Shown here one piece after another: positions 5,649 through 41,947 of a DNA stretch of 52,008 bases. The notes under the pieces are model-generated. The model had not been told where the DNA came from and did no database searches. It worked only from the letters and a program-made list of their open reading frames with translations. The position numbers and the translations under genes are program-made. This DNA comes from Opitutales bacterium. Lineage in GTDB: Bacteria; Verrucomicrobiota; Verrucomicrobiia; Opitutales; Oceanipulchritudinaceae. Location: assembly GCA_020831585.1 (NCBI GenBank), contig JAFIGE010000017.1, positions 1 through 52,008 of the forward strand, read 5' to 3'. How positions within the stretch are numbered: the first letter of the stretch is position 1; each line of letters opens with the position of its first letter.

Positions 5649-5853
5649 TTCAGCGCCAAAGGCGCGTCCGATACCAGCCCAGGCCGACGGCCTGGGTGGG
5701 CTCGACTCGACTCTACAAGAATGAGGGCTGAAGGCCCGACTTAAATGGGGCGGCCTAAAAGATAGATTGGGCTTTCAGCCCTACGGATGGGGGATGTGCG
5801 AATGTCCCAGAGCGTTGCTCTGGGCTGGTATAGGGCGCGCCTTCGGCGCTCAA
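5649..5853. repeat. MITE-like element with 34-bp imperfect terminal inverted repeats, in the 5598-6053 gene-free gap
   Basis: The left end (5649-5682) and the reverse complement of the right end (5820-5853) agree at 30 of 34 positions. Inside are small hairpins: CCCAGGCC/GGCCTGGG (5678-5696), a GGGCT-gaa-GGCCC hairpin near 5723, and CCCAGAGC/GCTCTGGG (5806-5824). No frame of gene quality is present. No target-site duplication was found. The rest of the gap (5854-6053) has another hairpin, TTCGGGT/ACCCGAA (5931-5953), and nothing else recognisable. It may be a non-autonomous mobile element or a REP-like cluster mobilised by a RAYT transposase such as the one at 32507. Confidence 0.6.
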
Positions 5854-40150: not shown

Positions 40151-41512
40151 TCAGCTCATGGAGCCGATGGGCTTTTCGAGAAGCGGGATCATCACGCCTT
40201 TGCGGAAGAGCGTCACCTGGCCGGTGCTGGCGCTGATGCTGATGGCGAGGCAATCGGCCGCGCGGGAAATGGCAGCGGCGGCGGCGTGGCGGGAACCAAA
40301 TCCGCTTGGCAGGTCTTCGTAAAATTCCGAGGGCGCGTGAATGAGGCTGCCGGCGGACTCAATGACCCCGTCTCCCCGGACGACAAAACACCCGTCGATC
40401 AAAGAAAACTCCTTGATGGTCTCATCCATGAAGGGATTGAGGACGTTGCGCTCCAAGTCCTTGTATCCGTGAAATGGATTCAGGACGAGGGGCTTGATCA
40501 TCGTCATCACCTTCGGGGAATCGCCAAGGACAAAGAGCGTGCCCACGGGTTTGCCCTCGCGCCCTTCCACGGCCAGCTCGGTGGCGATGGCGATCATGCG
40601 CTCCACGACCTCGATTTTAACGGAGGACGGGAGGAGCTCGCTCTCGCGGTCGATAACGCTCTGGAACTCGCGCTCAATGTCCACCACCATGATGGTATCG
40701 AGCAGGTTGCTGGCGGGGATGCCCCCCACGCAGCAGAGGCGGTCGCTGTATTTAAAAAGCCCCCGCGTGAGGCCAATGAGGATGGCACTGCGCACCTGCG
40801 AGAGGCGCTGATTGGAGAATGAGCGCACCTCTATGCACGTTTCCACCGACTTTTGGTCACCCGAGCGATCCGCCGCTGCCCGCGTGACGAGAATGGTGCG
40901 AAAGTGCGGGAAGCCGTCGGTCAGCTCAATGCCACCGGCAAAGGTGTCGCTGAAAACAAGAATGGCGGCGCAGCGGGCATCCTTGGCGACCTTTTCCGCT
41001 TCCCGCAGGAAGAGACGGTTGAAGCGGTTGCGGCGCCGCTCCGGCTTGGCCAGAAGTCCCCCAAAGGCGTTGAAAATACGCTCCTGAAAAACTTTTGTGT
41101 TCCGGGCCGCAACAATATCGTCGACCAGTTCCTGATCGCGGAAGATACGCGCCAGCGAAGCGAGGACGTTGAGGTAGTTGTTTTCGTTCTCCGAGGCGAG
41201 CAGGAGAAAAATGAGCCGCACGTTGGCGTAATCCGTCTTCCCCTCAAACTCGACGCCCTTGGGCACACGGCCGACGGCAAAAATGAAGGGTCGCTTCATC
41301 TTCACGCGCAGATGGGGCATGGCCACGCCGTGACCGAGGTAAGTGGTCATGACGCGCTCGCGCGTGAGGAGTTGGGCGGCGATGCGTTTGGGGTTCAGCT
41401 CATCACTCGAACGGTAAACGGAGACCGTGAGCAATTCAAGGAGGGCTCCGGGCAGGTCCGGGCTTTCAATTTCAATAATGCGCGACTTCGCGATGTACCG
41501 ATCAAGCCGCAT
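40151..41512 (-). CDS. PTS EIIA-type / DacZ-like diadenylate cyclase fusion
   Basis: A 453-residue protein. Residues 1-145 resemble a fructose-type PTS EIIA domain, with the phospho-acceptor His67 in GHGVAMPH and the helix/strand pattern of EIIA2. Residues ~165-340 read as a pyruvate-kinase-C-like alpha/beta domain (CAAILVFSDTFAGGIELTDG). The C-terminal ~110 residues are a DisA_N (DAC) cyclase domain: FVLGDSPKV, LNPFHGYKDLERNVLNPF, then DGC (373-375, replacing DGA) and GFGSRHAAAAAISRAADCLA with R408-H409-A410 (in place of RHR). This PK-like plus DAC layout matches archaeal DacZ as I remember it. It would make c-di-AMP, a potassium/osmotic signal. The EIIA part could couple it to PTS or nutrient status. 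Downstream of nuoA (63 bp), perhaps cotranscribed. Confidence 0.78.
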   Translation of the reverse strand: MRLDRYIAKSRIIEIESPDLPGALLELLTVSVYRSSDELNPKRIAAQLLTRERVMTTYLGHGVAMPHLRVKMKRPFIFAVGRVPKGVEFEGKTDYANVRLIFLLLASENENNYLNVLASLARIFRDQELVDDIVAARNTKVFQERIFNAFGGLLAKPERRRNRFNRLFLREAEKVAKDARCAAILVFSDTFAGGIELTDGFPHFRTILVTRAAADRSGDQKSVETCIEVRSFSNQRLSQVRSAILIGLTRGLFKYSDRLCCVGGIPASNLLDTIMVVDIEREFQSVIDRESELLPSSVKIEVVERMIAIATELAVEGREGKPVGTLFVLGDSPKVMTMIKPLVLNPFHGYKDLERNVLNPFMDETIKEFSLIDGCFVVRGDGVIESAGSLIHAPSEFYEDLPSGFGSRHAAAAAISRAADCLAISISASTGQVTLFRKGVMIPLLEKPIGSMS

Positions 41513-41575: not shown

Positions 41576-41947
41576 TCACTTGTCCCATTCCAAGACGCCT
41601 TTCTTCAGCTCGTAAATCAGACCGACCACGAGCACGAGGATGAAAAACAAAACCGGGAAGAGGATGGGCAGGTTTTGCGAGAGAAAATCGCGGTAAACGA
41701 GCACCCACGGGATCAGGAAAACGACCTCGATATCAAAGATGATAAAGAGCATGGCGACGAGGTAGAACTTCACACTGAAGCGCGCCCCGGCCCGGCCTTC
41801 GGGCAACATGCCACACTCGTAAGCGCTGTCTTTGAGGGAATTGGTGCGCGCGCGCTGCCCCATTAAATGGCTGAAACCAAGAATCGCCACGGCGAAAAAA
41901 ACGGCGAGTCCGATTTGGATCAATACAGGCAGGTAGTCGGTGAGCAT
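41576..41947 (-). CDS. nuoA: NADH-quinone oxidoreductase subunit A
   Basis: A 123-residue membrane protein with three hydrophobic helices. The NuoA signature YECGMLPEGRAGARFSVKFY between helices 1 and 2 and IIFDIEVVFLIPW in helix 2 identify it clearly. NuoA is part of the membrane arm at the quinone site of complex I. Unusually, no other nuo gene is next to it: upstream is a DUF362-like gene, downstream the EIIA/cyclase fusion. The rest of complex I must be elsewhere or outside the window. Start ATG 41947. Confidence 0.95.
   Translation of the reverse strand: MLTDYLPVLIQIGLAVFFAVAILGFSHLMGQRARTNSLKDSAYECGMLPEGRAGARFSVKFYLVAMLFIIFDIEVVFLIPWVLVYRDFLSQNLPILFPVLFFILVLVVGLIYELKKGVLEWDK

Follow-up and report, generated by a model that had tools for sequence, protein, structure and literature searches.

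A PTS EIIA domain fused to a predicted diadenylate cyclase in Opitutales: a candidate link between a regulatory phosphorelay and c-di-AMP

The minus strand of the 52,008-nucleotide stretch of Opitutales DNA analysed here (the window) encodes, at 40151..41512, a protein of 453 residues plus stop (ATG at 41512, stop at 40151) in which a PTS EIIA domain is joined to a pyruvate kinase C-terminal-like domain and a C-terminal diadenylate cyclase (DAC) domain. As judged from sequence, this fusion is the sole DAC and the sole EIIA_2 of a genome that also has EI and HPr, and its catalytic core is conserved. The reading that we prefer, though we hold it at no better than even chances, is that the fusion is the cell's c-di-AMP synthase, the EIIA of which receives from a regulatory, non-transporting PTS, such that the state of His67 would set the DAC.

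All three domains score above their Pfam cut-offs. The EIIA domain (residues 1-154; 41051..41512, minus strand, as for all features of the protein) matches PTS_EIIA_2 (PF00359) at residues 41-146 (80.5 bits against a cut-off of 27, E 1.6e-22); the DacZ_P/pyruvate kinase C-terminal-like domain (residues 156-284; 40661..41047) matches PF21755 at 162-284 (58.2 bits against 27.4); and the DAC domain (residues 292-444; 40181..40639) matches PF02457 at 314-440 (68.3 bits against 27, E 5.5e-19), with nothing found 3' of it in the Pfam search. The three folds are recovered in an AlphaFold2 model made with 72 sequences (mean pLDDT 86.2; pTM 0.60, at which the relative placement of the domains is uncertain). 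On comparison of the model with solved structures, residues 1-152 match EIIA-Ntr (1a6j; Z 19.1, rmsd 2.3, 147 aligned), residues 156-283 match the C-terminal domain (residues 344-471) of Mycobacterium tuberculosis pyruvate kinase (5ws9; Z 14.2, rmsd 3.2, 120 aligned) and residues 292-444 match DisA (9y4s; Z 16.1, rmsd 2.5, 130 aligned). A preliminary description had proposed this architecture, with His67 in a GHGVAMPH motif (41312..41314) and with D373-G374-C375 (40388..40396) and R408-H409-A410 (40283..40291) in the places of the DGA and RHR motifs of the cyclase. The Pfam and structural results bear out the architecture, and all three motifs are where they were placed; the gene coordinates given were likewise exact, though the strand, which is minus, had gone unstated. 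His67 is the expected phosphorylated histidine, a role presumed from that of its counterpart in PF00359 proteins.

The fusion is real and is no artefact of frame, since the whole protein, used as a query, finds a match in 92 of the order's 103 genomes, mostly as single open frames of ~450 residues; the 11 genomes without a match to the whole protein include some that are incomplete. A DAC is present in 371 of 387 genomes of the phylum and in 59 of 63 from the window's own order and family. In 57 of these 59 the best DAC E-value is 6e-24 or weaker, whereas in the rest of the phylum it mostly lies between 1e-30 and 1e-44; the other two (G220, G307) have both DAC types. On this sequence evidence, a divergent DAC replaces CdaA in the window's order and family. 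Outside the order, a few genomes likewise have a divergent DAC alone, among them G004, where it is a fusion (L107), and G179, G246 and G340; a search of the class around G004 covered a single genome. A DAC of another type, in a 402-residue frame with E about 1e-31, was seen at L103, L104 and L105 (G441, G307 and G220, respectively); it is additional to the fusion in G220 and G307, and is the only DAC found in G441.

Reduced forms also occur in Opitutales. At four loci (L082-L085), in genomes 0.8-0.9 Mb in size, the match is confined to the pyruvate kinase C-terminal-like and DAC part, and EIIA_2, EI and HPr were not found in these genomes. A further set (L089-L092) comprises EIIA-less DacZ-type proteins with DGG and RHL or RHV motifs, which form a clade of their own, and in three genomes (G169, G431, G455) an EIIA-less DacZ-type copy is found beside the fusion.

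No EI, HPr or EIIB/C had been seen in the window; the genome encodes each of EI and HPr once, on contigs other than that of the window. The EI has the three domains expected of it (PTS_I_fam, 552.9 bits) and the HPr has the motifs GVHARPA and GKSIMGL. The one EIIA_2 of the genome is the fused one, and profile searches of the assembly, which is 98.5% complete, gave neither a PF02378 EIIC nor an EIIA-man; sole EIIA here thus refers to two EIIA families, EIIA_2 and EIIA-man. Across 40 genomes, hand-picked to span the order rather than drawn at random, EI and HPr are both present in 24. In 12 of these there is no EIIA_2 besides the fused one, which in one genome (G407) has Tyr in place of His67; of the remainder, 11 have a further EIIA_2 and in one (G301) no EIIA_2 passes. 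A PF02378 EIIC is present in 3 of the 40 genomes and absent from 21 of the 24 with EI and HPr. In half of the EI- and HPr-containing genomes the fusion would therefore be, as far as tested, the only EIIA open to the relay.

In the preferred reading, EI and HPr would carry phosphate from PEP to His67, HPr being the donor that phosphorylates the EIIA histidine in this family. DAC activity would then be set, via dimer contacts, by whether His67 is phosphorylated, and perhaps also by a small ligand bound to the pyruvate kinase C-terminal-like domain. Because two DAC domains must face each other for catalysis, a domain lying between EIIA and DAC could act as a gate. The direction of control is a guess, i.e. 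that the unphosphorylated protein is active and that phosphorylation restrains a default-on cyclase; the guess is made because three genomes (G149, G172, G301) have one DAC each, without His67, and presumably still make c-di-AMP. The output would be control of K+ and osmolytes. That phosphorylation couples metabolic state to c-di-AMP, as had been suggested, is plausible, and is made likelier by the occurrence of EI and HPr in the same genome. A c-di-AMP riboswitch was considered as an output and set aside: RF00379 was found in 0 of 40 genomes, with scoring in 12 of these, the window's own included, confined to 62 first-look candidates each (62 of 136 for the window's own genome), and with B. 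subtilis and C. glutamicum positive among 14 controls.

The histidine itself gives a mixed picture. Of 92 Opitutales rows, a total that takes in fragments and rows without EIIA, 75 have His at position 67. Among the Opitutales genomes compared, His67 is kept in 18 of 23 with EI and HPr, vs 6 of 16 lacking either; in terms of EI alone, 39 genomes divide into 19 with both His67 and EI, 5 with His67 only, 5 with EI only and 10 with neither (Fisher p 0.007). The tree gives only 2-3 independent pairs, so the co-loss of His67 and EI was not taken as proof of phospho-control. There are five Opitutales genomes that have lost His67 while keeping EI and HPr, and five that keep it while lacking EI. On a 141-row tree, built without the EIIA columns, the state of the histidine changes at least 11 times. 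The switch, if real, is thus often dropped, and the repeated loss of the EIIA histidine, even beside EI, is evidence against universal phospho-control.

The same repeated loss speaks for an alternative in which the EIIA is a phosphorylation-independent structural or docking module, serving oligomerisation or localisation and belonging to the PTS by descent only. The Fibrobacterota also favour such a module: among the 21 rows listed, 13 have Gln at the histidine position (L155, L158, L159, L161, L163-L166, L168, L170, L178, L186, L187), 7 have His and 1 has Lys, and yet EI was found in all 21 genomes. Other groups point the opposite way, with His in 10 of 10 Spirochaetota and 15 of 15 Planctomycetota rows among the matches listed, some of which are close kin or come from one genome. 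Within the window's lineage, moreover, most members retain His67, its motif and R51, and the window's own genome has both EI and HPr. On balance a docking role appears unlikely, if by no means negligible. Presence of EI across phyla (49 of 50 genomes, with the Kiritimatiellae MAG of L201 as the exception) was dropped as support for a switch, because EI is also present in all five genomes with an EIIA-less relative (L193, L199, L200, L202, L214) and so does not single out the fusion.

The assignment of the EIIA as fructose-type in the preliminary description stands only in part. NCBIfam places fructose-IIA slightly ahead of PtsN (52 vs 46 bits, both below cut-off), but the nearest solved structures and the phmmer matches are EIIA-Ntr (PtsN), with which the fusion has the EIIA fold and the active-site motif in common. 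The PTS-Ntr is a regulatory PTS, as is proposed here for a genome that has no PF02378 permease. There are also differences: PtsN is free-standing and acts by binding, whereas the present EIIA is fused to a cyclase, and the EI of the window's genome has no GAF domain match, unlike EI-Ntr, which carries a GAF domain.

The likeness to PtsN brings K+ into consideration from two sides. In PMC7900238, c-di-AMP is described as a reporter of K+ for the majority of Gram-positive bacteria and for many Gram-negative ones, the alpha-, beta- and gamma-proteobacteria excepted, and PtsN as acting on K+ uptake in E. coli, where its unphosphorylated form binds TrkA and KdpD; PMC9239096 describes binding of PtsN to KdpD, and action of the pair, in Sinorhizobium as well. 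These partners, and the structural proximity of the EIIA to EIIA-Ntr, would fit a reversed flow, in which the EIIA is adjusted by the cyclase half and by c-di-AMP and itself binds K+ transporters or kinases, as PtsN does in Proteobacteria, with the fusion setting synthesis of the messenger beside its target. It is the cyclase, however, that is the constant part of the protein, the EIIA being absent by Pfam from L082, L089 and L200, all of which keep the pyruvate kinase C-terminal-like and DAC domains, and we consider a reversed flow improbable.

With regard to the DAC half, its proposed resemblance to DacZ rather than to CdaA or DisA holds by NCBIfam profile score: DacZ 112.8 bits, CdaM 28.4, CdaA 27.2, CdaS 24.9 and DisA 19.8, all below cut-offs, with the cut-off of the archaeal DacZ equivalog (NF041371), which the fusion fails, being 430. 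In a DAC tree of 130 rows, from which 31 named redundant loci and short rows had been removed beforehand, 14 CdaA rows split off at support 100 with the window protein on the opposite side, the Fibrobacterota form one group (support 97), and the EIIA-less reduced forms fall among Opitutales (SH-aLRT support 91, not starred). Thus the phylogeny sets the protein apart from CdaA. Its bearing on the other families is narrower, with no DisA row and with two DacZ proteins from Haladaptatus plasmids as the only archaeal rows, both on long branches and with their join with L221 flagged as doubtful. The DacZ/DacY (CdaZ) proteins of archaea likewise have a pyruvate kinase C-terminal-like domain followed by DAC but, unlike the fusion, are without EIIA; in the two plasmid DacZ proteins, as in the fusion, the third position of the RHR motif is not R. 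CdaA and DisA have the DAC fold and the D, G, R and H core in common with the fusion. CdaA has N-terminal membrane helices and DisA a DNA-binding C terminus; no DisA linker or DNA-binding domain follows the DAC of the fusion in the Pfam search.

The occurrence of DGC and RHA had raised doubt as to whether the cyclase is active, a doubt that is weakened by comparison with relatives. All 72 aligned relatives retain D373, G374, R408 and H409, and it is the third position of each motif that varies. At the third position of DGA, the 92 Opitutales rows have 80 A, 4 C, 4 G and 3 S (one row is without the region), with no DGC elsewhere among 152 rows; at that of RHR, 70 have A and 15 have S, and other groups have A, Q, R, T, V, L or E, with further residues across the branch. 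Two archaeal proteins annotated as DacZ have RHH, and the CdaA of the phylum has DGG at 13 and DGA at 6 of the 19 loci read (30 fetched). DacZ of Haloferax volcanii is an active Mn-dependent DAC, in which D194 lies within the DGA motif, according to PMC6741144. Because the four core residues are invariant, the third positions vary and this DacZ is active, cyclase activity would be expected of the fusion despite DGC and RHA. Loss of activity in the window's lineage, which would leave a pure sensor or binder, was rejected as very unlikely: the rarity of DGC and the missing third R speak for it, but the invariant core, the variable third positions, here and in DacZ and CdaA, and the standing of the fusion as the only DAC in its genome, by genome-wide profile search, speak against.

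The class to which the protein belongs appears to have been named already. Corrigan and Gruendling reportedly introduced, in 2013, a naming scheme with a class DacD, reportedly defined by EIIA plus DAC; in the fusion, EIIA lies N-terminal to DAC. DacD is given as a class of the 2013 diadenylate cyclase naming scheme in PMC6741144, which lists as its members in 2019 proteins of Lacunisphaera limnophila, Puniceicoccaceae, Coraliomargarita, a Verrucomicrobia bacterium and an Opitutae bacterium, i.e. members from the window's own lineage. Lacunisphaera limnophila belongs to Opitutales. The fusion thus probably belongs to an already named but functionally blank class, and the class is probably not new. 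A literature search covering few subscription papers found no study of an EIIA-DAC protein, such that a described family of the same architecture is apparent in name, without functional work in the literature searched.

The present analysis adds the sole-EIIA wiring, which appears to be the new part, along with the distribution across phyla and the recurrent losses of the histidine. To our knowledge, the control of DAC enzymes is poorly understood. The fusion supplies a candidate signal, i.e. PEP-derived phosphate on one histidine, with EI and HPr as its carriers and c-di-AMP as its output, all of which could be rebuilt from three proteins. It would join PtsN-type action on K+ and c-di-AMP in one polypeptide, and would permit a direct test of PTS state setting c-di-AMP. 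A broader proposal, which we put forward tentatively, is that in many Opitutales the EI-HPr relay has been reduced to setting c-di-AMP. The EIIA that acts on K+ through contacts with transporters and kinases in alpha-, beta- and gamma-proteobacteria, which are the exceptions to c-di-AMP signalling, would here be attached to the c-di-AMP synthase, with two logics of K+ control in one protein; some lineages would then have frozen the switch, by replacing His with Gln or Tyr, or lost it.

The spread was followed with L107 as the reference. Of the 582 candidate stretches listed from the named genomes scanned, 520 encode a relative, and 80 loci were kept. Among these matches, EIIA-DAC proteins occur in Fibrobacterota (Chitinivibrionales, Chitinispirillaceae and Fibrobacter), Spirochaetota, Planctomycetota, Kiritimatiellae and one deltaproteobacterial MAG, with groups set by record titles, except for L187 and L191, which were placed by kinship. 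Both EIIA and DAC are recognised by Pfam in seven of seven proteins tested from outside Opitutales (L156, L157, L165, L172, L173, L185, L201). The middle domain is less uniform at the level of profiles: DacZ_P is above cut-off in four of the seven, is weak in L172, L185 and L201, and was not found in L107, and PK_C scores below cut-off in L156, L157 and L165. EIIA-less DacZ-like proteins are also present among the matches listed, in Thermodesulfobacteriota (L199, L200, L202, L214) and in a Planctomycetota MAG (L193); for L200 the arrangement of pyruvate kinase C-terminal-like plus DAC domains without EIIA is confirmed by Pfam.

The genome neighbourhood was considered as a functional clue and gave no strong lead; among the few representatives of neighbour clusters identified by Pfam, none is a K+ transporter or MscS. 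The upstream neighbour of the fusion, at a distance of 63 bp and in the same orientation, is a nuoA-like gene (Oxidored_q4; 41576..41947, minus strand), and members of its cluster are found at 21 of the 105 loci compared. At the Fibrobacterota loci (L155-L207), a gene of an acyltransferase cluster is beside the fusion in 19 of 21 and a gene of a phosphoglucose isomerase (PGI) cluster is present at 14 of 21, with one representative of each cluster identified by Pfam. Elsewhere in the window, an Acido-Lenti-1 RNA (RF01687) is found at 5806-5850 on the plus strand (39.2 bits against a cut-off of 37).
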